Origin: a virus
Virus record (IMG/VR): IMGVR_UViG_3300042965_000080
Span: 1-50,745 of that record
DNA length: 50,745 bases
Reading direction: 5' to 3' (one strand)
Part shown: in pieces, positions 9,120-47,694 of the stretch
Position numbering within the stretch: the first letter of the stretch is position 1
Layout: each line of letters opens with the position of its first letter
Program-made: the position numbers and the translations under genes
The notes under the pieces: model-generated
The model's input: only the letters and a program-made list of their open reading frames with translations
Databases searched by the model: none
What the model was told of the DNA's origin: nothing

Positions 9120-9842
9120 CTATTCCTCAGCAATGGTTTTCTTTGCACACCTTCTCGCTACCTGGCAGGTCTTGCAATCAGGGTCAGAGGAGTCATACAT
9201 CCCGAAACACCTCGGCAAAGAAGTTTCAATCTCTTCGGTTGCCTCTTCAGCAAACTCAGTATCTGCAAGTAGTCCCACAATGTATTCCCTGTCTCTTGGC
9301 ACAAGGATTTCATCCAGGTCTGGAACATCTGCAAGCACTTCCTTTGGTATTGGGGTTGACTTATTTGAAACCCTGACCCTGTATTCTGTGTTTATTCCTT
9401 CACCTTCCCTTTCCAGTATGATATCATTCTTGAGTATAGCATCACCCCATTCAGGGTCTTCCGCATAGGAGCAGAGTTCATCAAAAATTGATACACCAAA
9501 CCCGAAGATTCTTGCTTTCAGCGGTTGCTCGAGTAATGGGACTACTACACAGAAGTATCGCAGTCTCGGTTGTAGTGATTGTGCAGATGCCCTGTCGCCC
9601 TGTCTTGCAAGCCTGCTTGCCAGCTGACATATCGGACAATCATTTTCACTGCACATCACTGACTTCCGCTGTCCGCCGACATCAAGGTGATGGAATTTTC
9701 GTTTCACATAGAAGTTCTTGTTTGGTCTGTCAAGTATGCGTATTCTGTGTTTCCCAGGCTTTGGAACCCAGAATATATCGCCTCTCCCTGCCCTCGCCTC
9801 CTCCTTGTCCTTGTTCAGTTCATCCTTAATTATTGGTGCCAT
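9120..9842 (-). CDS. gp32-like single-stranded DNA-binding protein with C-terminal Cys cluster
   Basis: 240 residues with AAGGAGGTGAGACA before the ATG. The N-terminal half has the OB-fold beginning GDIFWVPKPGKHRIRILDRP and a zinc-binding segment CSENDCPICQLASRL, as in phage gp32-like SSBs. The C-terminus carries CFGMYDSSDPDCKTCQVARR then C, a four-Cys cluster that also occurs in the 193-residue product encoded at 13151-13732. Position next to recA, polymerase and primase genes fits an SSB that coats the template strand. Function is family-based; the second Cys cluster is unusual for gp32 and may be a protein-contact module. Confidence 0.75.
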   Translation of the reverse strand: MAPIIKDELNKDKEEARAGRGDIFWVPKPGKHRIRILDRPNKNFYVKRKFHHLDVGGQRKSVMCSENDCPICQLASRLARQGDRASAQSLQPRLRYFCVVVPLLEQPLKARIFGFGVSIFDELCSYAEDPEWGDAILKNDIILEREGEGINTEYRVRVSNKSTPIPKEVLADVPDLDEILVPRDREYIVGLLADTEFAEEATEEIETSLPRCFGMYDSSDPDCKTCQVARRCAKKTIAEE

Positions 9843-9862
9843 TGTCTCACCTCCTTAAAAAA

Positions 9863-13150: not shown

Positions 13151-13732
13151 TTACGTCAACAGAAGCATCAGCCTTTTTACCTTGATTTTCCAGTTGTCAG
13201 GAAGGTCAAATGGAAGGTTGTCTTTCTGTTCCTCAAGCACTGCAATGACATCGTCCTCTGCAGTAATACCTGCTTTCAGAATCGCCTTCACTGCCTCCTT
13301 AAGGGTCGGAACTGCAGAGAGGTTAACCTTCGGCAATCCCTTTGTCTTTGCTGACTCTTCTTCAGATTCTTCCTCTTTTGTTTCTGGTTCTTCAGGAGTT
13401 TCTTTTTCTTTCTGTCTCAATGCAGTTTCCTTTTTACATTCCCTTGCTACACCGCACTCCTTACAAGCGGGGTCATTCGGGTCGTAGTTTCCGAAACAGT
13501 CTTCCTCACTTTCCGCAGTAGTTTCTATTTCAACTTCGGGTTCCTTTTCGGTTTCTGCTTTCTCAACTTTTTCTTTCTCTTTCTGTGGTTGGATTGGGGT
13601 ATACGGCTTCGGCGGTTCTGCTGGTTGTTCAGTCCTCACTTGTGTTGTTTTTCCTTCCAAAAACACCTTGAGGAGGTTTGTGAATTCCTCCTCATTCACC
13701 TCTACTTCTATCGTCATACGCACCTTTCTCAT
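13151..13732 (-). CDS. Acidic, low-complexity protein with the SSB-type Cys cluster
   Basis: 193 residues with TTAAGGAGGTGAAACA before the ATG. N-terminal 30 residues (VRMTIEVEVNEEEFTNLLKV) are ordered. A Glu/Lys/Pro-rich linker follows, then CFGNYDPNDPACKECGVARE then C (about 80-100), nearly the same Cys cluster as at the end of the phage SSB. A second Glu-rich linker and a helical C-terminus (VPTLKEAVKAILKAGI ... IKVKRLMLLL) close the protein. The shared cluster suggests a common partner at the fork, or a shared zinc site. It leads a transcript from promoter copy 2. Function unknown. Confidence 0.6.
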   Translation of the reverse strand: MRKVRMTIEVEVNEEEFTNLLKVFLEGKTTQVRTEQPAEPPKPYTPIQPQKEKEKVEKAETEKEPEVEIETTAESEEDCFGNYDPNDPACKECGVARECKKETALRQKEKETPEEPETKEEESEEESAKTKGLPKVNLSAVPTLKEAVKAILKAGITAEDDVIAVLEEQKDNLPFDLPDNWKIKVKRLMLLLT

Positions 13733-13767
13733 TGTTTCACCTCCTTAAAAAAGTAGTAGTTCACTAT

Positions 13768-30430: not shown

Positions 30431-31459
30431 ATGAAAGTGTATCTCGCATCAATTGGTAGTATAGATGGTATGCATAAAATCTTTATTGCGGATGATGGTG
30501 TAGAAGCGAGGATTCTGTTTTCTGCATTCAAGTTGTTTCCACTCACATCCAATAATAACAAACCAAGTAGGACTCAACGCCACAGATTGTCAGCGATTGA
30601 GTCATTCCTGAGTGGTTTGTATAGTAAATGGGGACGCATTGATTGGTTTCTTGATTCAGGGGCATTCAGTTTTCAGATGTTGTATGCACGGAAGCAGGTA
30701 TTGTATTCAGTTTCAGTTTACGAACGGTATTTAGTGAGTTATCTTGAGTGGATATCGGATTTGCCTGAACGTCTGCGACCATCTGTGGTAGTTGAGTTAG
30801 ACCTTCAGAACCTGTTGCCATACAGGGAGATTGAACGGTGGCGGTTACACTATTTCCTGCCATTCCAGAAAGAAACAGGTATTCCTGTTATCTTCGCAAT
30901 AAGGCCGCAGACATACGAGGCAGATGTTGAGTTTGTGTTTGGCAACTCCGCAGTGCGATACTTTGCAACTTCAGCACTTACCGCAGCGTTGAACACGGAG
31001 AATGCGATTGATACCACAGTGAGTCTCACATACAGGGGTTATGCAGAAGGGAAGCGTATGCACGGGTTTGCATCAATCAAACCGAGCCTTCTGCTCAGAA
31101 TTCCTTACTACTCGGTTGACTCTATTTCCTGGGCTATGCCCCTTTTTTATGGTAAAGTATTGAAGTGGGATAATCAATCTGGCAGGTTCAAAAGTGCAAG
31201 GGTTGGAACTCGTGGCAAGAGTAAACCCCACGATGGTAATGTCTTGCTGGAGGCGTTGAAACTCAATGACGACATCATCGTTAGAACAATACTTACCAAA
31301 AAGAGACGAAGCGGTGTAGATGCCTGGGTTAGACCATTGCGTAAGTCTATTATGGCATACAAGGAATTAGAGCAATGGTATACAGCTTACTGGAAGAAGA
31401 AGGGTATTGACTGGGACAGGGTTGATAATGAAAGCAAAGATAAAGAGGCAACCGTGTGA
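30431..31459 (+). CDS. dpdA: DpdA-like DNA-guanine transglycosylase
   Basis: 342 residues. TGT-like TIM-barrel features: WFLDSGAFSFQ (about 72-82) for the first conserved Asp, a central IPVIFAIRPQ strand, then MHGFASIKPSLLLRIPYYSV followed by DSISW (about 210-234), the second Asp that attacks the base in phage DpdA enzymes. DpdA swaps guanine in DNA for a 7-deazaguanine such as preQ0 or preQ1. The other genes of the pathway surround it, which supports the call strongly. No RNA-binding PUA domain of tRNA TGT is visible. Confidence 0.8.
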   Translation: MKVYLASIGSIDGMHKIFIADDGVEARILFSAFKLFPLTSNNNKPSRTQRHRLSAIESFLSGLYSKWGRIDWFLDSGAFSFQMLYARKQVLYSVSVYERYLVSYLEWISDLPERLRPSVVVELDLQNLLPYREIERWRLHYFLPFQKETGIPVIFAIRPQTYEADVEFVFGNSAVRYFATSALTAALNTENAIDTTVSLTYRGYAEGKRMHGFASIKPSLLLRIPYYSVDSISWAMPLFYGKVLKWDNQSGRFKSARVGTRGKSKPHDGNVLLEALKLNDDIIVRTILTKKRRSGVDAWVRPLRKSIMAYKELEQWYTAYWKKKGIDWDRVDNESKDKEATV

Positions 31460-32210
31460 TAATAGTAATAGTAGGGGCGAAGAACTGCGGCAGCCTGCTG
31501 TGGCGGGAATAGACCTCAAGCAGTCAGTAGTGCCTGATGTAGTAATCCCGCTGGGTAATGGCAAAGAGATACGACTCATTCCAGTTGATAGTGTCAAATT
31601 TAGACGCAGGAACTACAGGCGGATGGATGCACGGACCTGGCAGGCACTTGACAGGTCATTTGAGAAGTTTGGATTGGCATCAGTCATACTGGTCCACAGG
31701 GGTAAGGACGGTGGTTATTATATGGTTGACGGGCACCACAGGCTGGATATGGCAAAGAAGAAGGGTTACAAGTGGATTCCTGCGTTTGTATTTCCTGAAG
31801 ATGTTGACCCGAAAGACCTTGACCTAGCAATGCTTGCATTTAATATCACTGCAGAGATTGACCCTGACCCATACCTTGACCTGGTATCTGACTTGATGAA
31901 AGAGGGTGCTGATGTTGAGGAGGTGTCACTATTCACAGGTCTGGATGAGTCAACTATCAACTTGATGACAGATGAAGGTGAAGAAGGACAACCAGGTGAC
32001 GAAATGAAGTTTATTACATCACCACCACGGGAACGAAGTAGCCCTGCAGTAGGACGTCTCTTTGTAGTTACACTACCGAGAGAGTATGGGATAGTTGTTC
32101 AGAAGTTGTGTGAGCAACTCGGATTGACCACTCCTGCAGAGGTGGTATCACTGGCACTTGATTACGTGAGTAAACAGCTGAATATTGATAACAATGATTC
32201 GGAAACCTAA
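31428..32210 (+). CDS. ParB/sulfiredoxin-fold protein downstream of dpdA
   Basis: 260 residues from the ATG after CAGGGTTGATA; overlaps the dpdA end by 32 bp. After a disordered N-terminus (1-45) comes a ParB N-domain: IRLIPVDSVKF, FEKFGLASVILVHRGKDGGY then YMVDGHHRLDMAKKKGYKWI. VDGHHR is the nucleotide-binding GxxR-type motif. A helical part and a C-terminal basic segment (VVTLPREYGIVVQKL...) follow. Bacterial Dpd systems pair the transglycosylase with DpdB, an ATPase with a related DGQHR-type fold, so a partner role for this protein is possible. A nuclease or site-specific DNA binder is the alternative. Confidence 0.7.
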   Translation: MKAKIKRQPCDNSNSRGEELRQPAVAGIDLKQSVVPDVVIPLGNGKEIRLIPVDSVKFRRRNYRRMDARTWQALDRSFEKFGLASVILVHRGKDGGYYMVDGHHRLDMAKKKGYKWIPAFVFPEDVDPKDLDLAMLAFNITAEIDPDPYLDLVSDLMKEGADVEEVSLFTGLDESTINLMTDEGEEGQPGDEMKFITSPPRERSSPAVGRLFVVTLPREYGIVVQKLCEQLGLTTPAEVVSLALDYVSKQLNIDNNDSET

Positions 32211-34268: not shown

Positions 34269-35330
34269 TTAATCCCTTGATTCTTGTGCGGTGGTGAGTT
34301 TCGTGATGCCTTTGCCCTGGAGGTAGTTTTTGATGTCTGGTATGAAGCGTGCAATCCAGTCTGCGGTGGTGAGGTAGTATAGGTCTTCAAAGAGTGGGTG
34401 GTTTGCGATTTCGGATTTTTCTTCGGCAGGTAGTTTGTTCCAGTCTCGCAGTAGCATGTGGTGTTCGGTGAGCCAGCGGACGTCTCTGGATAGTTGTGGT
34501 GGGAAGTTGTGTTTCAGTAGTAGTTTTTCTGCCTTCTCACCGCCTATTGTGTCGTGGTCGGGGTGTCGTATGCGTTCTGGCGAATGTATGTATGTGGTTT
34601 CAGATTTGCCGATGTCGTGTAATAATCCTGCGAGCCTTATTCTGAATGGTGCATCAAACATTTTCAGTAAAGCGAGGACATGTATGGTATGGGTCAATAC
34701 ATCACCTTCAGGGTGTGTTATGCGGTCATGCAGTCCCTTGCCGAGTATATCAACTGCTTCATCAATCAATCCCTTCAAGTCACCTTCATCTGGTCTGGTG
34801 GTTCGGTTCTGTTTCAGGTTGTCTGCCTTTTTCAGCAATGCTGGTAATAGTGTCAAGATTGACGCAACTGTGTATGCCTTCGTATACATTGATACCCACT
34901 CTTCCCATCGTTTCTGTGTTTCTGCTCGTTCTTTTTGTTCAGTGAATAACTCTATATCATGTGGACTGACTGCTCCATGAGTTTGTTTCAGAAACTTTAT
35001 AGCATCAACCAGTGCCCCAAACCTTGTCATATACGGACCCCTTGTGCCTACCACTTCACCAGTTTTTTCACCAGGTCTGGGCTTCAGGATGTCAAAATAC
35101 CATACCCTTGTCTCAACCTCTTTCTCTTGTTCACCAGGGTATGTAGGGAATAGCACCTGTCGCCTCACCCTCTCTTTTCTTGAGTAAATTCTGATTTTTG
35201 GCACTTCCGTTGTTCCTGGTGATACATGCCTGTATGCATAGTATCCACCACCCTTCACTCTCGGGTCTCTTACCCATACTTTCTTCTTTACCAATCCCAG
35301 AATTGCCTTTGTGGTATCAATATCAGTCAT
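34269..35330 (-). CDS. HD-domain phosphohydrolase in the packaging operon
   Basis: 353 residues. After a short start comes KKVWVRDPRVKGGGYYAYRH (residues 16-35), a motif shared with products at 42041 and 45746. The HD domain (about 215-330) has THTIHVLALL, AGLLHDIGKSETTYIHS (HD), HPDHDTIGGEKA, LTEHHM and TTADW, the metal ligands of the HD superfamily. Such enzymes hydrolyse phosphate esters of nucleotides or cleave cyclic nucleotides. It lies next to the portal, 6 bp away, and ends the operon, so it may be a virion or packaging protein; the substrate is unknown. Confidence 0.75.
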   Translation of the reverse strand: MTDIDTTKAILGLVKKKVWVRDPRVKGGGYYAYRHVSPGTTEVPKIRIYSRKERVRRQVLFPTYPGEQEKEVETRVWYFDILKPRPGEKTGEVVGTRGPYMTRFGALVDAIKFLKQTHGAVSPHDIELFTEQKERAETQKRWEEWVSMYTKAYTVASILTLLPALLKKADNLKQNRTTRPDEGDLKGLIDEAVDILGKGLHDRITHPEGDVLTHTIHVLALLKMFDAPFRIRLAGLLHDIGKSETTYIHSPERIRHPDHDTIGGEKAEKLLLKHNFPPQLSRDVRWLTEHHMLLRDWNKLPAEEKSEIANHPLFEDLYYLTTADWIARFIPDIKNYLQGKGITKLTTAQESRD

Positions 35331-35336
35331 GTCACA

Positions 35337-36797
35337 TCACAATTCAATCACAATTTCCTTCTTATCTTCTGGTTTGCAGGTTATTCCTTTCTTCAATGTG
35401 TCTGGTTCGCTCTCATTGAGTCGTTCACCCTTTGTGGGGGTAACTCCAGCCATACCACCAAACATCATCAATTGCATATAGTGTGAGTCTCTAATTATGT
35501 CACCATATGGTAGTGGTGGTAAGTCCATTTCAAGCCTGACTTCATTTATAGTTTTGTAAACCCTTGTCTCCCTATCAATCAATTCAGCTTGTCGTTCCTC
35601 TTCAAGGACATCAATACCTTCAAACTCAAACACAAAGTCCTCTGAGTATGGCCATACGAAATTCTCGGTGATAATGCTTTCTATGAAGTTCAGTAATGGT
35701 CGTAACCCTTTGTCTTTGGAATACACCAGCTTTGCTTCCTGCCCCTTCTCAAATAATGGTCTGCCCTCACCCCTCGGTGGAAAATTCACCTCTGCAGGGT
35801 CAATGAGGTAAACCGCACAGGCACAGTTAATCAGGTAGTCAATCCACCTGCCCCACTCCATATCTTTGTTTGACTTCATCAACTCAATCCACTCGACACT
35901 ACCGCCTGCTGGCACCGATAACACCGGGATTCTGTGTGAGGCAACTACCCCTGCAAGAGTGCTTTCCCACACACGCTGGAAAAAGTATAGTTGTTCCTGT
36001 GTAATCTCTGCACCCTTTGATACCAGCAACCCCGTTGGTATTGCCCCGTGTGAGAAGAACCTGCGGTTATACTCCTCTGCATACAGGTGCGAGGTAATCA
36101 CATGCATGAGCATCTCAAGTTCTGAGAACCCGTAGCCGTTGACTCTCAGGTCTGACCGCGGGTTAGCAACTGCAAACACAAGTTCATCAAGGTCAAACTC
36201 AACTCTCGGTTGACCAAATACAACCTGTTTGTAGCCAGTTATGTTCCCATCTTTGTCAACCACTAATCTTATCGTTGCACCATCAAGGGCATAGAATTCT
36301 GCAGGCAGACCTTTCCTGTTTCTGACAATTTCAACTGCAACCTGGTCTAACACAAGCCTGTCTCTGATAATTTTCTTCAGGAATGTCAAAAAGTTGTCTC
36401 GCTGTTTATTCTCGGTATAGCCACACTTGAGTATGAACATTTCCATCCACCGCACAAACTTTTCTTCTGCTGGTGTAAGTTTTTTCTTGGGGTCTCTCGT
36501 CCTTATTGTCCAGCCTCTACCATAAGCGTCCTGTGTTGAGGGTCGCCACAGGCTTGATACCTGTGCAATCCTTGTTTGTATTATTGCACTCACCACCACA
36601 TCCCTTGCTGCCATTGCCCTGAGTATGTCATAGGATATTGAAGAGGGTTTGTCTTTATAGGTCAGTGCGGTAAGCACCTGAAAGGGGTCAACCCGCAGTC
36701 CCTTTCGTTCCTTCACTGCTTCTGGTATAGCTGCTTTCTCAATTGTGTCATGTCTGGTTGTCCTTGCTGGTATGAGTTCAATCAGTTTTGAAATCAT
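35337..36797 (-). CDS. Portal protein
   Basis: 486 residues. The N-terminal half has DILRAMAARDVVVSAIIQTR and the central PAEFYALDGATIRLVVDKDG, LDELVFAVANPRSDLRVNGY then GFSELEMLMHVI, all as in phage portals (the NPR..GYG.SELE motif). The clip and stem follow with LSVPAGGSVEWIELMKSNKD. Portals form the dodecameric ring through which DNA enters and leaves. The gene is downstream of terL, 18 bp after its stop, and has its own late promoter. C-terminal 60 residues look disordered (ERLNESEPDTLKKGITCKPE). Confidence 0.88.
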   Translation of the reverse strand: MISKLIELIPARTTRHDTIEKAAIPEAVKERKGLRVDPFQVLTALTYKDKPSSISYDILRAMAARDVVVSAIIQTRIAQVSSLWRPSTQDAYGRGWTIRTRDPKKKLTPAEEKFVRWMEMFILKCGYTENKQRDNFLTFLKKIIRDRLVLDQVAVEIVRNRKGLPAEFYALDGATIRLVVDKDGNITGYKQVVFGQPRVEFDLDELVFAVANPRSDLRVNGYGFSELEMLMHVITSHLYAEEYNRRFFSHGAIPTGLLVSKGAEITQEQLYFFQRVWESTLAGVVASHRIPVLSVPAGGSVEWIELMKSNKDMEWGRWIDYLINCACAVYLIDPAEVNFPPRGEGRPLFEKGQEAKLVYSKDKGLRPLLNFIESIITENFVWPYSEDFVFEFEGIDVLEEERQAELIDRETRVYKTINEVRLEMDLPPLPYGDIIRDSHYMQLMMFGGMAGVTPTKGERLNESEPDTLKKGITCKPEDKKEIVIEL

Positions 36798-36803
36798 GGT
36801 TCC

Positions 36804-36833
36804 ATTATATACCTTTCACAGGCTGATTGTCAA
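36804..36833 (-). promoter_or_regulatory. Late promoter before the portal gene
   Basis: On the - strand: TTGACA, 18-nt spacer, TATAAT: a consensus sigma70-type promoter, with the -35 box inside the end of terL. The -10 lies just before the portal ATG, so the transcript has a very short leader or starts near the start codon. Confidence 0.7.
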
Positions 36834-38438
36834 TACTGATGTTCTGGCGCTCTGTAATGGTGTTTGTCTGGTCAATCCCAATACTGCGTATGCGAGACAA
36901 TGCAATAGGTGGTCATCACCACTTTTGACAACCTCCTCCATGATGCCTGTTTCATCTTCCTGTTCAAGTATGAATACATTTTCAACATGACGTTTCAGCA
37001 ACCTGCCCTGCTCATTCAGTTCACTGAGGTTCAATAATAACTTCTGGTCAAGTAATTGTTTCAGGTATTTTATGAGGGCAACTTTTGCAATTTGCACAAC
37101 ACCAGTGTTATTGTTCCATTCTGGTGAGAATGTCTTTATGCGGCGTCTCGCATAGAAACAACCCCACACCTTTTTTCCGAATACACTTCGTAGATACTCA
37201 ATCCTGTCTATGCCCCACCCACTGTCCGCAACAATTATGTCGGGATTGTATGGTAATAGTTTTTCTGTGAGCGCTTTCACGCCACCCAGTGGTTCCGAAG
37301 TGTCAGGTGAGTAAAGCACTGATAACACTTGGATATGCCCCCTGATTGTCTTTCCAATCACCACTGCCCAGTTCACCTTGCCCCAGTCGATACCAACTGC
37401 AACTGATTGAACATCAGGTGGTTTCCCAGGCTTTGGTAATTCACCAGAACTATGTATTGTCAGTGTGGTGCCTTCTTCCTTGAATGGTTCACCCAATACA
37501 TAGTTATACCAGATTGACCGCAGTTTGTAGCGTTGCACCGACAATACTATCTGGTTGGCACTAATCCACGGTGCCATCAGTTGTGTGAAATGGTAGCCTC
37601 TCACATCTTTCACTGATGGATTTTCAGCAACCCATTCACCATCCTCAAGTCTGGTGAGTTTCCGTTTACACTTTCTACACCCGATAATGAATGTGTCCTC
37701 CTCCAGTTCGGTGATTTCACCAGAAAGTATCAGCCGCATAAGGTCTTCTGAACCCTTTGTCTGTATCACATTATCCTTGTAGGTTAAATACTGCCACTCA
37801 CCACAGTGTTCACACTTGATAAACCATTTCCGTCTGTCTGACATCGCATACTCATTGCTTATACCTACCCCTGGTAGTGTAGGTGTGGATATGAACCGTT
37901 TCCAGCCGAAGTGTGAAGCCTTGAGTGATTCCTCAAATGCAGGTAATACATCCTTGCGCATCCTGTCATACTCATCAAAATAGATTATGTCCGCATCAGT
38001 CGCCTCACCGAATTCTTCCTCCCAGGTGGACTTGATTTCAACAAATACCCTGTTCCCTGCTGGTGTATCAAAGCGTTTCATTCCTGCACTTGATTCCCTT
38101 ATCATGCTACTCAATAGTGGTGATGATTGTATAGCAGGGTCAAACCGCGTCTTGCTGAATTCACTGCTTTGCCTGCCTCTCGGAAAACAATACACTATTT
38201 TCAATGACACATCGGGAACACTTACTAACCATCCAATCTCAATTATACTTACTTCAGTAAGCCCTAACTGCCTTGCCTTCAGTGCCACCTTGTATGGGTG
38301 AAGGTCATTGAGATACCCGACAAGGAATGGACGGTATTGTCGCAGGTCTTCTGTGTTGTAGAACCGCACAGGACGATTCCTGACGAACCAGTGTTTCAGT
38401 GCCCAGTTTGAGGGGATTAGGTATTCATCTACTTGCAC
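36816..38438 (-). CDS. terL: Terminase large subunit
   Basis: 540 residues from a GTG overlapping the queF stop. The ATPase has a Walker A-like KARQLGLTEVS (54-64) and Walker B IIYFDEYDRM. Two CxxC pairs (CEHCGEWQ, CRKCKRKL) form a zinc module as in gpA-type terminases. The RNase H-like nuclease has VGIDWGKVNWAVVIG and IVADSGWG. It cuts concatemers and pumps DNA through the portal. Its operon runs opposite to the head genes, with queF upstream, portal and HD protein downstream. The usual Lys of Walker A is not in a classical GKT loop, as in many TerL. Confidence 0.88.
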   Translation of the reverse strand: MQVDEYLIPSNWALKHWFVRNRPVRFYNTEDLRQYRPFLVGYLNDLHPYKVALKARQLGLTEVSIIEIGWLVSVPDVSLKIVYCFPRGRQSSEFSKTRFDPAIQSSPLLSSMIRESSAGMKRFDTPAGNRVFVEIKSTWEEEFGEATDADIIYFDEYDRMRKDVLPAFEESLKASHFGWKRFISTPTLPGVGISNEYAMSDRRKWFIKCEHCGEWQYLTYKDNVIQTKGSEDLMRLILSGEITELEEDTFIIGCRKCKRKLTRLEDGEWVAENPSVKDVRGYHFTQLMAPWISANQIVLSVQRYKLRSIWYNYVLGEPFKEEGTTLTIHSSGELPKPGKPPDVQSVAVGIDWGKVNWAVVIGKTIRGHIQVLSVLYSPDTSEPLGGVKALTEKLLPYNPDIIVADSGWGIDRIEYLRSVFGKKVWGCFYARRRIKTFSPEWNNNTGVVQIAKVALIKYLKQLLDQKLLLNLSELNEQGRLLKRHVENVFILEQEDETGIMEEVVKSGDDHLLHCLAYAVLGLTRQTPLQSARTSVLTISL

Positions 38439-38866
38439 TTCTTTTCAGGATACCTTGCAGAGGCGATTGTTTGGATTCCTCCCCTTGGTGTGAACTCTAT
38501 CCTTACTTCCATCCATTCCGGGTTCACAAGTGTGGAAAGGTCTTCTAAAATTCTTGCAACTGCATGTTCATTTATTATCCCGACATTTCTGAATGAGAGT
38601 AAATAGAACTTGAGTGATTTCAGTTCAATGACTTTGTTTGAAGGCAAGTAGGTGATTGTCAGTTTTCCAAAGTCAGGAAGACCTGTCCATGGACACAAAC
38701 ATGTGAATTCATTGGTGGTGTAGGTGATTTCAACTTTCTTCTTTTCTGTATAGGGAATCGCCTTCAGGACAGATGAGTCAATTCTGTCCTTTCTGGACTT
38801 CACTTCTTTTTTGTAAGTTTCTTTCAACCCTTCAAAAAACTCATTCAGTTTGTTTTTTCCTTTCAT
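38429..38866 (-). CDS. queF: QueF, preQ0 reductase (NADPH-dependent)
   Basis: 145 residues. EFTCLCPWTGLPDFGKLTI contains the catalytic Cys (LCPWTG) and Asp (PDF). VIELKSLKFYLLSFRNVGII then NEHAVARIL is the QueF NADPH and substrate motif, with the conserved Glu. EFTPRGGI closes the fold. Length fits the short, unimodular QueF (YkvM type). It reduces 7-cyano-7-deazaguanine (preQ0) to preQ1. It is 7 kb away from the queE-dpdA cluster and leads the terminase operon, so expression may be timed with packaging. Its promoter is weak. Confidence 0.92.
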   Translation of the reverse strand: MKGKNKLNEFFEGLKETYKKEVKSRKDRIDSSVLKAIPYTEKKKVEITYTTNEFTCLCPWTGLPDFGKLTITYLPSNKVIELKSLKFYLLSFRNVGIINEHAVARILEDLSTLVNPEWMEVRIEFTPRGGIQTIASARYPEKKCK

Positions 38867-41829: not shown

Positions 41830-42077
41830 TGCGGATAAGGACTGACTTATCACTTGAAGAATTGCGGAATGTAGTTGAGTATATGGCTTCTGAACTTGGC
41901 ATACTTGATGACTATGTTCCTGAATGGTCTCTGATGAAAGGTGAACAACGCAGACCCTCAAAAAAGGTTAAATTCAGTAGTAAAGCACTTGAAGAATTGA
42001 CACAGAAAACTATGAAGGACATAAAGGAGGTTGTTGACCGATGGAGAACAAGGTTACAAAAAGTTTTGACCGAATAG
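41829..42077 (+). CDS. Small helical protein
   Basis: 82 residues; the ATG uses the last base of the preceding stop codon. Two charged helices (EELRNVVEYMASELGILDDY; LEELTQKTMKDIKEVVDRWR). Overlaps the next gene by 37 bp. No motif; probably a head accessory translated by coupling. Confidence 0.5.
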   Translation: MRIRTDLSLEELRNVVEYMASELGILDDYVPEWSLMKGEQRRPSKKVKFSSKALEELTQKTMKDIKEVVDRWRTRLQKVLTE

Positions 42078-43516
42078 AGAAAACCCTTGACCTGCTCATA
42101 AAAGCAATTCCAGATGTGTTCAAAGCAAGAAAACCAAAAGGTCCAAGAGGTCCAAAGAAACCACCAAGACCTGACCTGATACCAAAAAAAGTGTGGGTGA
42201 GAGACCCGACTAAAAGCGGAGGCGGATACTACGCATTCAGGTGGGTCCATCCTGAAACAGGTGAAGTCGTTATACCTGATACACCAGAGTTTGAGATATA
42301 TCCTGGACTTGCTGAAGAGTTGAAACAGATTGCGGAGGAAGTCAAACCAGAGGAAGAAGTAAAGAAGTTAGACCCTGTTGTCAAAGAGGAGGTAAAGGAA
42401 ACGAAGGAACGGGTTGAAAATTTGCCACTACTTGACCGAGAAGCGCTGCTTGACCAATTGATTTTTACACTTGAGCCACCTAAACGGAGGAAGATTAAAC
42501 CTTCCACAATACTTGATGTAACGGAGCCTACACCTCCGCCAGAGGAGCCTGAAATTGTAGTTGACCCTGTTACTGGCAAGGAACGACCGGAAATTGTTAA
42601 CCCTTCAGAGATTGTGAAACTATTGAATGAAGGAAAAATAAGATACCAGAACTTGACACCAGAGGAAAAGAACAGATTTATCCAGAGTTCTGCAGTGAAA
42701 CGGCAGGTGAACTATGCTATGTGGCGGTCCTGGCCGAAAGAGCTGTCTGCATATTATCAGCCAGGTAAAGTGAAACGTTCCTACTATGAAGACCTGAAGC
42801 AGGAATTGTTTATGAAGGTTCACGAGTTGATGCAGAACTATGACCCTGAGAAAGGTGCCTCTGTGGAAACATATTTGGGCAGAAACTTGGTGGGTTATGG
42901 AACAGAGGCATTAAGAAAGTGGTTGCTGGAGGTTCCAAAACTCACATACAAATATACTGAGCACACACCAACTGAGATTGAGGAAGTCCTTGAGATGTAT
43001 AGAATTGAGCCCGAAGTATTGAAACAGATGCACCCGTTAGTGGTGCCTATGGTTGAAGAGTTTGAGTCATTGAGTAAGAAAATACAAGACCGCATGTGGA
43101 GTATTGCAAAGAAAGACCCGTGGATGCAGATGGCAATGGTGGCACAATTTGAGGCAATGGTTGAGGAATTGCAACGAAGGGGTGAAACCGCAGAAGTAGG
43201 TATCCCGAGGGGGTTGAAGGTGTATGCTGAGAAGTTGTGGCAGGATTTGGAGGCAGACCCAGAACGGAAAAGAAGGTTTGAAGCAATTGGAGTGGATTCA
43301 GTTCAGAAACTACACAAGTATCTCCAGATTGCATGGCAGAACTTGGTTGATGAGTTGAAAGCAGATAAGGAATTACAGAAGTGGGTCAAGGAGAGGGATA
43401 ATCTGTTGCTTGCTATAAGGCAGGAGTTGATGCGAAAGGCAAAGTTGATGCAGTATTTCAACCTGTTGAAAGGATATGTGTTGAGCTCTGATGAAAAGAA
43501 GTCCAGGGTTATCTGA
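42041..43516 (+). CDS. Sigma-factor region 2-like protein in the head cluster
   Basis: 491 residues with AAGGAGGTTGTTGACCG before the ATG. Residues 51-68 hold VWVRDPTKSGGGYYAFRW, shared with the HD protein and the product at 45746. Around 215-300, KRSYYEDLKQELFMKVHELM then QNYDPEKGASVETYLGRN resembles sigma70 region 2 (EDL.QE.f..L..Ai..FDPe.G.sF.tYa...ir). No region 4 HTH is visible; the C-terminus is a long helical segment. It could be a virion-borne transcription factor or a structural protein that merely shares the helical fold. The central 110-200 is Glu/Lys/Pro-rich. Confidence 0.55.
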   Translation: MENKVTKSFDRIEKTLDLLIKAIPDVFKARKPKGPRGPKKPPRPDLIPKKVWVRDPTKSGGGYYAFRWVHPETGEVVIPDTPEFEIYPGLAEELKQIAEEVKPEEEVKKLDPVVKEEVKETKERVENLPLLDREALLDQLIFTLEPPKRRKIKPSTILDVTEPTPPPEEPEIVVDPVTGKERPEIVNPSEIVKLLNEGKIRYQNLTPEEKNRFIQSSAVKRQVNYAMWRSWPKELSAYYQPGKVKRSYYEDLKQELFMKVHELMQNYDPEKGASVETYLGRNLVGYGTEALRKWLLEVPKLTYKYTEHTPTEIEEVLEMYRIEPEVLKQMHPLVVPMVEEFESLSKKIQDRMWSIAKKDPWMQMAMVAQFEAMVEELQRRGETAEVGIPRGLKVYAEKLWQDLEADPERKRRFEAIGVDSVQKLHKYLQIAWQNLVDELKADKELQKWVKERDNLLLAIRQELMRKAKLMQYFNLLKGYVLSSDEKKSRVI

Positions 43517-44105
43517 AATTGTAAACATACCAATTGACCAACTTGAAGAGAATCCCAGAAACCCGAATGTATTGCCACCCGAAATGTTTGAGCGGTTGAA
43601 ACTTGCAATTAAGCGGTTCGGGTTCACTCAACCCATACTCGTCAAGAAGAACAAATCAAATGGGAAATACACAATAGTTGACGGCAATCATAGATACAGG
43701 GCAGCACTTGAACTCGGCTACAAGGAACTACCAGCAACCATTACTGCTGATGATGAACGAGTGCAGTCAATCTCAATGAATAAGTTGAGGGGACACCTGG
43801 ATGGAAACATAACTGCAGAATTATTGAGTGAAGTTGTCAGTGATGGCTGGAAGGTTGAAGAACTGACCCTGACAGGGTTCTCAGAGGAAGAGTTGCTTGA
43901 GATGCTAAACCCATCGGTTGATACTTTGCCAGAACCTGATGTTAGGGTTGCCACACCAGAACCTGAAAAGGAGGAATGGATACTTGAGGTGAAGTTTGAG
44001 AATAGGGAAGACCTGAATTATGTTAAGAAGGTGTTAAGGAAGTTCAGTAAGGGTAAAGGGTATGCAGTTGGATTGTTGAATGTTTGTAAAATGGTAATGG
44101 AATGA
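43491..44105 (+). CDS. ParB N-terminal-domain protein in the head cluster
   Basis: 204 residues overlapping the previous gene by 26 bp. IPIDQLEENPRNPNVLPPEM, RFGFTQPILVKKN, then YTIVDGNHRYRAALELGYKE is the ParB/Srx fold with the GNHR motif. It is distinct from the ParB-like protein at 31428. Such proteins occur in phage terminase/head modules, possibly as nucleases or DNA-site binders. The C-terminus ends in a small charged helical domain. Function unknown. Confidence 0.7.
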   Translation: MKRSPGLSEIVNIPIDQLEENPRNPNVLPPEMFERLKLAIKRFGFTQPILVKKNKSNGKYTIVDGNHRYRAALELGYKELPATITADDERVQSISMNKLRGHLDGNITAELLSEVVSDGWKVEELTLTGFSEEELLEMLNPSVDTLPEPDVRVATPEPEKEEWILEVKFENREDLNYVKKVLRKFSKGKGYAVGLLNVCKMVME

Positions 44106-44158: not shown

Positions 44159-44941
44159 ATGATAGACAAGGAAACCTTTGAGTTCTACACTGACCTTGAA
44201 CCAGTATGGCAGAAGGGTGAAGACCCTGAGAAGATTGACCGTTGGCTGATACGGGGTTATGCTTCAACCTCTGCGAGGGACAGGGACAATGAGATTGTCA
44301 ACCCGCTCGGGCTGGACATAGAGTATTTCCTTGAACGAGGGTGGATAAACTATAATCACTCAAATGACCCTGAAGATTTGATAGGTATTCCGTTGAGGGG
44401 CGAAATTGATGAACGAAAGTTCTACCTTGAGGGTGAATTGCTGAAGTCGCAACCGAAGGCGAGGGATGTATGGAATCTGGCAGTTGCGCTACACAAGGCA
44501 GGATATCCAAGGAAATTGGGGCTGAGTATTGAAGGAAAGATTGTTGAACGGGATGGGAATGTGATAAAGAAGGCAATTGTCTATAATGTGTCAGTATGTC
44601 CACATCCTATCAATCCCGAGGCAACCTTTGAGGCAGTAATAAAGGGTCTAACCGCCGGGTATGCAGGGGCACCATCAGGGGCTACACAGGCGAGGACTGG
44701 CGGTTCTGCACTCATAACTCAATCCCTTGACAAGGATGTGAAGGTTCAAACCTATGAACCTATCAAACCGAGGGTCAAGTCAATTTGCGATGAACTGCCA
44801 GAATCATTGAGGAGCTGGTGTGAGAACCTGTTTGCTACGAAGAAGGCTATAAGTGAACTTGAAGCAATTGCCTTGATACAACTTGTTAAGGGATTATCAA
44901 GAAAGGAGGCAATTGGGGTTTTGAAAAGATTAAAACCTTGA
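44159..44941 (+). CDS. Prohead protease (HK97-family-like, U35)
   Basis: 260 residues with GGGAGGTATAGACA before the ATG. The N-terminal half follows the prohead protease fold: WLIRGYASTSARDRDNEIVN, GWINYNHSNDPEDLIGIPLR (His of the catalytic set), then LGLSIEGKIVE with the Ser, and VYNVSVCPHPINPEATFEAV. Around 162-200 it has KGLTAGYAGAPSGATQARTG then GSALITQSL, a segment almost repeated in the major capsid protein. The protease matures the capsid; the shared segment may be a cleavage or assembly site. The C-terminal 60 residues are a helical extension. Confidence 0.8.
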   Translation: MIDKETFEFYTDLEPVWQKGEDPEKIDRWLIRGYASTSARDRDNEIVNPLGLDIEYFLERGWINYNHSNDPEDLIGIPLRGEIDERKFYLEGELLKSQPKARDVWNLAVALHKAGYPRKLGLSIEGKIVERDGNVIKKAIVYNVSVCPHPINPEATFEAVIKGLTAGYAGAPSGATQARTGGSALITQSLDKDVKVQTYEPIKPRVKSICDELPESLRSWCENLFATKKAISELEAIALIQLVKGLSRKEAIGVLKRLKP

Positions 44942-44967
44942 CACAGGTTAGTAAGTTGGGATACAAT
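44938..44967 (+). promoter_or_regulatory. Late promoter before the scaffold gene
   Basis: TTGACA (overlapping the protease stop), 18-nt spacer, TACAAT, then the TAGGAGGT ribosome site. One of three successive late promoters at protease, scaffold and capsid genes. Confidence 0.7.
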
Positions 44968-44998
44968 ATAAGTTGATGATGTATAGGAGGTTTGAACA

Positions 44999-45733
44999 AT
45001 GGGACAAAGAAAAGACGACATTGAGGTTTTAAAACTCTTGTCAGAACTGGCAAAAAGCACGAACCAGGAACCACTACAAAAGGCAGTTAAGGATGTAATT
45101 GAGGAAATGTTTGGCGATGAGGTTGAAACAGAGAAAAAAGAGGAAGAAGAGAAGACAGAGGCAGAACCAGTAGAAGAAAAGACACAAGAAGAAGTTAAAG
45201 GTGGTGAGGCTGAAGAGGTCAAACCAGAGACAAACCCATGTCGGAAAAGGAAAGCAAAACCATCAAAAGAGAAATTAGAAGATGAGGAACTTGAAACAGA
45301 AGAAGAACTTGAAGCGGAAGAAGAGGAAGAGCCTGAAACAGAGGAAATTGAGGAGGAAGAAGAGGAGTTTGAGGAAAAGAGGACTACCCTGACACCAGAG
45401 GAGATTGTTATCAAGGCAGTCGCAAAGATAAAGGATGAAGTGAAGGAATTGAAAAAGTCAATTGTTGATGTTAGTGGCTTGAAGGATACTCTTGACAGGA
45501 TTTCAGGAAGGCTTGACAAGATTGAGGAACGGCTCACAAAGGTTGAAGAAACACCAGTGGGCAGGAAAGGGATTACCAAAGCCTATACTGGCACCGCAGA
45601 CAGGTTTGAGGAGAAAACCCAGATTTCCTACGCAGACATTGAACATGCCTTCAAGAAGGGTGAAATCAGTGCTGAGGATGTTGTAAAGTTTGAAACACTT
45701 GGCATAGTTCCGAGGGCATTGAGGAAACAATAG
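44999..45733 (+). CDS. Scaffold-like acidic coiled-coil protein
   Basis: 244 residues with TATAGGAGGTTTGAACA before the ATG. Residues 40-125 are mostly Glu with Lys, Pro and Thr. Then comes a coiled coil (ISGRLDKIEERLTKVEETPV) and a C-terminal segment ISYADIEHAFKKGEISAEDV. The position between protease and capsid genes fits a scaffold. No sequence family is recognised because of low complexity. The antisense Ser-rich open frame is a shadow of this composition. Confidence 0.7.
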   Translation: MGQRKDDIEVLKLLSELAKSTNQEPLQKAVKDVIEEMFGDEVETEKKEEEEKTEAEPVEEKTQEEVKGGEAEEVKPETNPCRKRKAKPSKEKLEDEELETEEELEAEEEEEPETEEIEEEEEEFEEKRTTLTPEEIVIKAVAKIKDEVKELKKSIVDVSGLKDTLDRISGRLDKIEERLTKVEETPVGRKGITKAYTGTADRFEEKTQISYADIEHAFKKGEISAEDVVKFETLGIVPRALRKQ

Positions 45734-45745
45734 GGAGTTTTAACA

Positions 45746-46195
45746 ATGGATGAAAAACTCTATACAACCCTCAAAAATTTGGGTATTGACCCCAGTCTGG
45801 TTGTCCCCTCTAATCCCATAACAGAGGTGGTTGATAGCACTGCTCTCAATGAACTGATAATCAAGAAACTCGGTGTGGAGAAGGGTGAAAAGGTTCTGGA
45901 AGAACTGCGGAAAGCAGAAGTTGTTCATTCCTTGCTGAAAGCAAAAAGGAAGGGAACAAAGGATATTGGACACCTCATTCCGATAAAGGTGTGGGTAAAA
46001 GACCCTACAAAGAATGGTGGAGGGTATTACGCCACAAGATACATCTCACCGGAGGAGGCACAGGAATTGATATCAAAAAGACCTGCTGAACCGATTGAGA
46101 AAGAGTGGCTTGATGCAGGATTTGAGGAAGAAGAGGCAAAAGAGATGTATCAAGAACAACGGAAACGATATTATGCAGGACCTAAAGAGGAGTAA
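45746..46195 (+). CDS. Small head-cluster protein carrying the KVWV motif
   Basis: 149 residues after GGGAGTTTTAACA. The N-terminal 65 residues are helical. Residues 81-98 hold KVWVKDPTKNGGGYYATR, shared with the HD protein and the sigma-like protein. The C-terminus is Glu-rich and helical. Between scaffold and capsid genes: possibly a minor capsid or internal protein. No enzyme motif. Confidence 0.6.
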   Translation: MDEKLYTTLKNLGIDPSLVVPSNPITEVVDSTALNELIIKKLGVEKGEKVLEELRKAEVVHSLLKAKRKGTKDIGHLIPIKVWVKDPTKNGGGYYATRYISPEEAQELISKRPAEPIEKEWLDAGFEEEEAKEMYQEQRKRYYAGPKEE

Positions 46196-46214
46196 GAGGA
46201 GTATTTCTAAAACC

Positions 46215-46244
46215 TTGACAAATGTTTGGAGTGTTATGTAAAAT
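46215..46244 (+). promoter_or_regulatory. Late promoter before the major capsid gene
   Basis: TTGACA, 18-nt spacer, TAAAAT, followed 35 bp later by the capsid ATG. A second TTGACG at 46250 is less likely. Confidence 0.7.
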
Positions 46245-46278
46245 GATGATTGACGGATGTTATAGGAGGTTGTAAGAT

Positions 46279-47694
46279 ATGGATGTAAGAGACTATGAGC
46301 AGACAGGGTCAGGGTTTGGTATAGCCCCTGCAACTGATGTATTGGAACTGAAGAAGGCACTTGAGGCTGGTTATGCTGGTGCACCTGAGGGTGCAACTGA
46401 TGTGATGGTTGGTGGTGCAGCACTCAGGGTTCAATCACTGGAAGCCTCACTCAAGGTTCTCACCTGGAAAGAGGAACACCTCGTTCTGTGGAGAGACATC
46501 CCGAAGACACCTGCATACAGCACAGTTGAGGAGTATACCCAGTTGAGAGAGTATGGTCCTGAGTATGGTGGTGCGTTCACACTGGAAGGTGAACTGCCTG
46601 CAGAACAGACATCCGATTACATCAGGAAAGCGGCATTTGTCAAATTCCTCGGCACAACCAGGGTTGTCACCCATCCTATGACTGTTGTGAGGACACAGGT
46701 TGGTGATGTTGTTGCGAGGGAGAATATCAACGGGATACTCTGGCTCTTGAAACAGCTTGACTGGGCGCTTGTGTGGGGCAATTCCAAACTAAATGTGGGT
46801 GGCACCGAGTATGTTGAGTTTGACGGACTGCTGAACATGATTGACCCGAACAATGTGATTGATATGAAGGGTCAACCGCTTTCTGAGAAGGCAATACAGG
46901 ATGCGGCACAAATAGTTCTTGACAACTATGGTGTGCCGAATGCCCTGTATGCCTCACCCAAGGTTCTACAGGATTTTGCAAAACAGTATCTACCTGTTGA
47001 AAGGGTATTTGTGCCAGTGCCAGGCGGGGGGTTCACTGGTGGATTCATAATCAACAACTACCAGACTGTTGCGGGTATGATTTCACTCAAGGGTGACCTG
47101 TTCATGAGAAAAGTGTATCCTAATACCAACGCTACATCCACAGAAGCACCAGACGCACCTGCCAGTGTAACGGCTGTTGCAGGGACAGGCACTGATGCTG
47201 AATGGGGTAAGACATACCCGAATGGGGTCACAGTCAAATACAAGGTTACAGCATGCAACAGGAAAGGTGCATCCGCACCTGTAGAAAGCAACTCATACAC
47301 AGTCGCTTCAAATGCATTGACAACCCCGGTAAAGGTCACAATTACACTCGGTTCTTCACTCACCAGGGCTCCTGATTATTATCAGGTTTACAGGTCTGAC
47401 AATGGTGGACCATACACACTGATTGCGAGGATACCCTGTGCAAGTGGACAGAATATTCCTGGTGGGGCAACAGACTTCATTGACAAGAACATAGTTGTTG
47501 CCAATACTTATGTGGCATTCCTTGGTGAGATGACCCCTGATGTCATAGAGTTCAGACAGTTGCTACCACTAATAAAGATGGACCTCGCAGTGATATCACC
47601 TGCTATCAGATGGATGCTCCTGCTCTACGGTGTCCCGGTGATATATGCACCGAAGAAGTGGGTCAAGATAATCAATATCGGCGACGCTACATAA
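46279..47694 (+). CDS. Major capsid protein with Ig/FN3-like insertion
   Basis: 471 residues with TATAGGAGGTTGTAAGAT before the ATG. Residues 26-63 carry KALEAGYAGAPEGATDVMVG then GAALRVQSL, closely matching the protease segment at 162-200. The shell domain follows: DIPKTPAYSTVEEYTQLREY, GTTRVVTHPMTVVRTQ, PNALYASPKVLQDFAKQY. Residues about 290-405 form a beta-sandwich insertion (APDAPASVTAVAGTGTD, YYQVYRSDNGGPYTLIARI), FN3-like, and then the shell resumes (EFRQLLPLIKMDLAVISPAI). It is preceded by its own promoter and followed by a hairpin. Confidence 0.85.
   Translation: MDVRDYEQTGSGFGIAPATDVLELKKALEAGYAGAPEGATDVMVGGAALRVQSLEASLKVLTWKEEHLVLWRDIPKTPAYSTVEEYTQLREYGPEYGGAFTLEGELPAEQTSDYIRKAAFVKFLGTTRVVTHPMTVVRTQVGDVVARENINGILWLLKQLDWALVWGNSKLNVGGTEYVEFDGLLNMIDPNNVIDMKGQPLSEKAIQDAAQIVLDNYGVPNALYASPKVLQDFAKQYLPVERVFVPVPGGGFTGGFIINNYQTVAGMISLKGDLFMRKVYPNTNATSTEAPDAPASVTAVAGTGTDAEWGKTYPNGVTVKYKVTACNRKGASAPVESNSYTVASNALTTPVKVTITLGSSLTRAPDYYQVYRSDNGGPYTLIARIPCASGQNIPGGATDFIDKNIVVANTYVAFLGEMTPDVIEFRQLLPLIKMDLAVISPAIRWMLLLYGVPVIYAPKKWVKIINIGDAT

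Follow-up and report, generated by a model that had tools for sequence, protein, structure and literature searches.

Why should the maturation protease of a tailed phage carry, between its catalytic domain and its C-terminal tail, a copy of a stretch found near the start of the capsid protein? The question is raised by a virus record of 50,745 bases, which may be a fragment (IMG/VR record IMGVR_UViG_3300042965_000080; its whole length is referred to as the window) and which, judged from its sequence, is the record of an SPO1-like phage in its genes for the prohead protease and the major capsid protein (MCP). Protease residues 162-200 and MCP residues 26-64 are identical at 22 of 39 positions (46 bits, E 3e-10), the sole significant match in the BLASTP comparison. 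The local score of the segment was 108, against a maximum of 58 in 500 shuffles, and these two results rule out chance similarity and confirm the coordinates and the motif of the 38-residue segment that a first-pass annotation had described as common to both proteins. With the MCP as query, just two places were found in the window's own record, the MCP itself and the protease at 44633-44758, and the window's genome contained no copies of the segment beyond these two proteins. Of the 22 identical residues, 10 also have the same codon, compared with 7.9 expected from codon usage, and the repeat is therefore one at the level of the protein and not of the DNA. The PHROG protease model weakly matches the MCP at precisely residues 26-64, which was the first hint that the sharing is general.

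A search for the shared segment in other phages, which the first-pass annotation had proposed as a check, found it in both proteins across the Herelleviridae and beyond. It is present in both proteins of all 11 herellevirus reference sets, where it follows the catalytic domain of the protease and lies near residues 20-65 of the MCP, and a segment-profile search of 11 phage records identified exactly two places in each, the protease and the MCP. Scans of IMG/VR added many more two-gene loci, nearly all with the segment in both proteins; 154 loci were compared, many being near-duplicates. Scanning viral contigs with a single MCP sequence gave no matches, and alignment-based scans succeeded. Diverged forms of the segment occur in a Thermus phage, in Myxococcus phage Mx1 and in a Rhodovastum plasmid. 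The Mx1 protease (locus L174, 503-4222) is contained within a 1,239-residue fusion and keeps a capsid-like segment closely matching that of its own MCP. The 112-kb alphaproteobacterial plasmid RHOApe of Rhodovastum atsumiense (NZ_OW485606; locus L175, 3290-6386), which may be a phage-plasmid, has genes for a capsid protein, for a scaffold-like protein and for a segment-bearing protease. No segment copy above shuffles was found in the D3 protease, the copy in the protease of Bacteroides SJC03 was not significant (p = 0.06), and in HK97 gp4 no MCP-like segment was detected, the only match being weak and located elsewhere in the protein (p = 0.016). The shared segment is unreported in the open-licence literature library that was searched; a key paper on the HK97 protease domain lies outside the coverage of this library, so that absence from print is not established.

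Solved capsids of relatives place the start of the mature MCP at the N-terminal edge of the segment. The mature MCP chain of Staphylococcus phage 812 (9row) begins at S25, directly after the conserved K24. The SPO1 capsid entry (9vel) includes a chain with 445 modelled residues, which equals 468 minus 23, and its aligned range starts, in the numbering of the entry, at residue 24 (K23↓A24, with the arrow marking the scissile bond); this start was taken from the alignment range and the number of modelled residues rather than from coordinates. In HK97 gp5, the cut is at K103↓S104. The lysine at the start of the segment is invariant in 54 proteases (K162) and nearly so in 50 MCPs. Because the mature MCPs of 812 and SPO1 start after the equivalent lysine, we predict that the homologous bonds of the window, K26↓A27 in the MCP and K162↓G163 in the protease, are cut, the cut rule for both proteins being [V/I/L]-x-K↓[S/A/G]. 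Cleavage at this edge is, by homology with 812 and SPO1, well supported for the MCP and, as a prediction, likely for the protease, which would cleave itself at K162. The earlier suggestion that the segment could be the cleavage site thus holds for its N-terminal edge but not for the ~35 residues downstream, which seem unneeded for cutting, given the many likely K↓S sites of the scaffold that lack them.

The putative scaffold of the window was assigned by its position between protease and MCP, as for SPO1 gp3.3, and by its composition; Pfam and PHROG searches gave no family match. Scaffolds from 59 genomes contain three times as many K↓S dipeptides as expected (556 vs 182.5), as would be the case if the same motif were used to chop the scaffold; no such excess was seen in capsid proteins. 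In the K↓S sites of the reference scaffolds, P3 is V, L or I and P5 is often acidic, and the putative scaffold of the window contains 9 K↓[SAG] sites compared with 4.4 in shuffles (p = 0.014). Scaffold K↓S sites show no resemblance to the segments of their own genome, with only the unprimed side in common, and the presence of segment-related sequence in the scaffold was ruled out as no matching was found. A cut site alone is insufficient to account for the segment, because likely K↓S sites abound in the scaffold without the matched downstream part following them.

If the two copies had long been separate and had evolved freely, the MCP copy from the same genome should be no closer to the protease copy than the MCP copies of other phages. 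The own MCP copy was the best match of the protease copy in 13 of 20 phages with MCPs <70% identical and in 9 of 11 phages with MCPs <55% identical (0 of 20,000 permutations in both cases), and in 13 of 17 diverged elements once those from Thermus, Myxococcus and Rhodovastum were added (0 of 100,000 permutations; for Thermus and Rhodovastum, the rows were added by hand and positioned by pairwise alignment). These permutations take genomes as exchangeable, near-duplicates having been dropped by MCP identity, and controls on the scaffold, tail, catalytic stretch and capsid body guard against effects of lineage composition. Own-genome matching was strongest at P1′-P12′ (z 9.0), lower further downstream (z 5.8) and slight upstream (z 1.6-1.8), and the control regions (protease tail, catalytic stretch, MCP residues 120-220) showed none. 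The co-varying positions are P2′-P4′ and P6′-P11′. Examples of matched pairs are those of Brochothrix ADU4 (KSMTTGYEHGGTDQTDG / KSMTTGYNHGGTDQFNG) and Myxococcus phage Mx1 (KAMEAGNFNAAPSTL / KAMEAGNFNAKPSTL), and in the window four extra residues (AGYAGAPxGAT) are present in both copies. Codons at identical residues were themselves identical in 473 of 1100 cases compared with 489 expected (59 genomes), and with codon identity at chance, a DNA repeat or recent gene conversion is ruled out. The strong own-genome matching combined with this chance-level codon identity indicates that selection on the proteins, and not recent copying of DNA, keeps the copies alike. Parallel changes among close relatives (40 of 382 doubly changed sites) derive from non-independent pairs, have no null, and are not used as evidence.

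The protease was assigned to the PHROG 1028 head maturation proteases (E 2.3e-69, residues 19-257) and had no Pfam match at E 0.1. Foldseek retrieved herpesvirus assemblins, i.e. the proteases of Kaposi's sarcoma-associated herpesvirus (KSHV), pseudorabies virus (PRV), Epstein-Barr virus (EBV) and human cytomegalovirus (HCMV), at E 3e-5 and above, and T4 gp21 at E 6e-3; the predicted structure thus has an assemblin-like fold. H67 and S123, which are invariant in the 54 protease sequences, are the predicted catalytic His and Ser, with roles assigned by analogy. The AlphaFold model comprises a confident catalytic domain (residues ~30-155), a disordered stretch at 162-202 (predicted local distance difference test, pLDDT, <50) and a helical tail at 203-260, in agreement with the position between catalytic domain and tail that had been noted for the segment at first pass, and the segment is not docked in cis in this model. 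It is also disordered in the predicted MCP monomer, and the SPO1 residue count implies that it is ordered in the shell. The protease tail resembles the tail of HK97 gp4 (GLTKSQAVGLIARFK) with a score reached by 2 of 2000 shuffles. The MCP was assigned to PHROG 752 (E 3e-113), its nearest solved capsid protein is SPO1 gp6.1 (9vel; E 1e-122 by sequence, Foldseek E 9e-51), and it has the HK97 fold, with Z-scores of 39.6 to SPO1 9vel, 28.5 to phi812 5lii and ~20 to HK97.

We lean towards the view that the segment is a composite of a cut site for the maturation protease and, following it, a linear docking tag. In the MCP, the cut would release a propeptide of 26 residues, so that the mature MCP would begin at residue 27 and its N-arm with the segment. 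The corresponding cut in the protease, at K162↓G163, would separate the catalytic domain from the segment and the HK97 gp4-like helical tail. The protease copy would mimic the capsid N-arm, and the N-arm's own partner, which may be the scaffold core or the inside of the capsid lattice, would bring the protease into the growing prohead; cutting at the segment's start would then release it. We infer this docking partner and the recruiting role of the protease segment; of the roles suggested at first pass, a docking sequence fits best, the two copies being under common constraint. The C-terminal propeptide of the SPN3US protease has been proposed to target the enzyme into the prohead (PMC7411985), and the scaffolds of 80alpha, P22 and phi29 contact a helix of the MCP N-arm (PMC12749128). 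The presence of the protease in purified virions of two relatives, described below, fits this view as well. On a broader and more tentative level, it is quite possible that tailed phages of a wide lineage target their protease by mimicry, with a co-evolving duplicate of the N-arm, a common docking site, and release by the cut that matures the coat. Several points weigh against the composite of cut site and docking tag. Targeting may be due to the helical tail alone, as has been suggested for HK97, and the MCP itself could fill every N-arm site in the mature shell. In some proteases (Lactobacillus Bromius, Rhodovastum) the lysine is displaced from the segment, and cut and segment may be separable. 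Finally, the binding partner of the segment and the self-cleavage at K162 are both reached by inference.

The main rival explanation regards the segment as an extended substrate, in which one enzyme cuts both proteins, its cleft or an exosite recognising 12-20 residues past the scissile bond, and the two copies co-evolve with it; in a variant, the protease's own copy blocks the active site until capsid copies compete with it. The matching that starts at P1′ and is strongest over P1′-P12′ fits this explanation, as does the same invariant lysine opening both sites. An extended substrate would account for the position of the segment but not for the scaffold, whose three-fold enriched and probably cut K↓S sites are unlike the segments of their own genome, and the similarity runs over more than 30 residues. 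As the segment was also not docked in cis by AlphaFold, we consider an extended substrate rather unlikely, albeit worth keeping in mind.

Improbable, in our view, is that the protease fragment 163-260, once cleaved off, remains in the virion and occupies special shell sites, e.g. near the vertices or the portal, as a minor structural component. The N-terminus of this fragment would equal that of the mature MCP, and peptides of the protease were detected in purified virions of the related Listeria phage CKA15 (4 peptides; PMC12282133) and Bacillus phage Bc431v3 (12% coverage; PMC3601020), but the main texts of these reports do not place the detected peptides on parts of the protease, and the authors of the CKA15 study suggested residual intact enzyme (PMC12282133). 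Occasional gene conversion between neighbouring genes could keep the copies alike without any functional need, and the distance of ~1.3 kb between the genes and the occurrence of lineage-specific residues and the four-residue insertion in both copies would fit such exchange. The codon identity, which equals the expectation from codon usage, speaks against it, although the silent traces of old events may have been erased, and we regard conversion as very improbable. The composite of cut site and docking tag is thus the explanation that we prefer, and the features on which it draws are listed in Table 1.

Table 1 Positions of the head maturation features in the window and the basis of their assignment.
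Feature	Position	Strand	Basis
Prohead (head maturation) protease, 260 aa, invariant His67 and Ser123	44159..44941	+	PHROG 1028, Foldseek, 54-sequence alignment
Shared segment, protease residues 162-200	44642..44758	+	BLASTP; profile match 44642-44764, E 1.5e-16; predicted disordered
Predicted self-cleavage site K162↓G163 of the protease	44642..44647	+	Invariant K162; alignment with the 812/SPO1 MCP cut
Protease C-terminal helical tail, residues 203-260, last motif GLSRKEAIGVLKRLK	44765..44938	+	Predicted helices; HK97 gp4 likeness
Putative scaffold, 244 aa, acidic, with coiled stretch and nine K↓[SAG] sites	44999..45733	+	Position and composition
MCP, 471 aa, HK97 fold	46279..47694	+	PHROG 752, SPO1 gp6.1 match
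Predicted MCP propeptide, residues 1-26	46279..46356	+	Homology with phage 812 (24 residues) and SPO1 (23 residues)
Shared segment, MCP residues 26-64, mature N-arm start, predicted cut K26↓A27	46354..46470	+	BLASTP; profile match 46354-46479, E 6e-19; mature chains of relatives

The nearest phage relatives of the MCP and the protease are herelleviruses, with identities of up to 47%. The herellevirus order portal-protease-scaffold-MCP on one strand was not found in the window, where the portal gene lies at 35337-36797 on the minus strand, a ParB-like gene precedes the protease, and an open reading frame (ORF) of 149 aa is situated between scaffold and MCP. Because its gene order differs, the phage of the window is left outside the Herelleviridae, a family with genomes of ~125-170 kb (compared with the 50,745 bases of this record), Bacillota hosts and contractile tails. 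The portal and terminase genes together (35337-38438, minus strand) are opposite in strand to protease, scaffold and MCP, unlike in herelleviruses.

Further repeats and genes were noticed in the window. A second shared segment of ~37 residues (LIPxKVWVxDPTKxGGGYYAxR) occurs in the ORFs at 34272-35336 (minus strand), 42038-43513 (plus) and 45734-46192 (plus), among which it is 57-59% identical (E 1e-7 to 6e-11); it had no match in the phage collection searched. The ORFs at 31371-32207 and 43485-44102 (both plus), the second of which is ParB-like and lies just upstream of the protease, are 30% identical over 159 residues. In the replication region, the ORFs at 9123-9854 and 13154-13744 (both minus) have a 25-residue stretch in common that is 64% identical and C-terminal in the first. 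A 491-aa ORF in the head gene cluster (42041-43516, plus) showed a weak match to sigma-70 region 2 (PF04542, E 1.4e-5), and a QueF-like gene (38429-38866, minus; PF14489, E 1.5e-28) suggests 7-deazaguanine metabolism.

How a limited number of protease molecules enter the closed prohead and act there at the right time is only partly understood. Co-variation between the tag on the coat and its counterpart on the protease, seen even among very distant phages, points to one specific binding site for both, and the question can be tested directly by exchanging segments in SPO1 and related model phages. The segment is also a possible cargo tag for SPO1-type capsids, and the cut rule could be used to annotate the mature forms of head proteins in the hundreds of phages sequenced.

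Among known systems, SPO1 (gp3.2 and gp6.1) and Staphylococcus phage 812/K have the same protease and MCP families as the window, with the segment in both proteins and the same cut lysine. The window differs in the four residues inserted in its copies (AGAPxGAT), in a portal gene encoded on the other strand and in the additional ORF that separates scaffold from MCP. HK97 resembles the window in that gp5 is cut at the start of the N-arm and gp4 has K↓S sites and a GLTKSQA-type tail, but no MCP-like segment was detected in gp4 and the HK97 scaffold is a delta domain fused to the MCP. Duda et al. reportedly found in 2013 that the tail of the HK97 protease carries a capsid-targeting signal. In the herpesvirus assemblin precursor, a catalytic domain is followed by a release site and a capsid-binding tail. 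This assemblin-scaffold precursor has the same catalytic fold as the protease of the window, but its tail is the scaffold itself and not a copy of the capsid N-arm. The proteases SPN3US gp245 and T4 gp21 likewise have a C-terminal propeptide that is self-cleaved at the motif of other head proteins and has been proposed to function in targeting (PMC10052503, PMC7411985); in contrast to the window, they are cut after Glu (AXE), and a copy of the capsid arm has not been reported for them. The capsid targeting sequences of T4 are short linear tags that direct internal proteins to the inside of the prohead, where the protease cuts them off (PMC7411985). Unlike the segment of the window, they are N-terminal, span 10-20 residues, bind the core, are not copies of the capsid protein, and lie outside the mature product.

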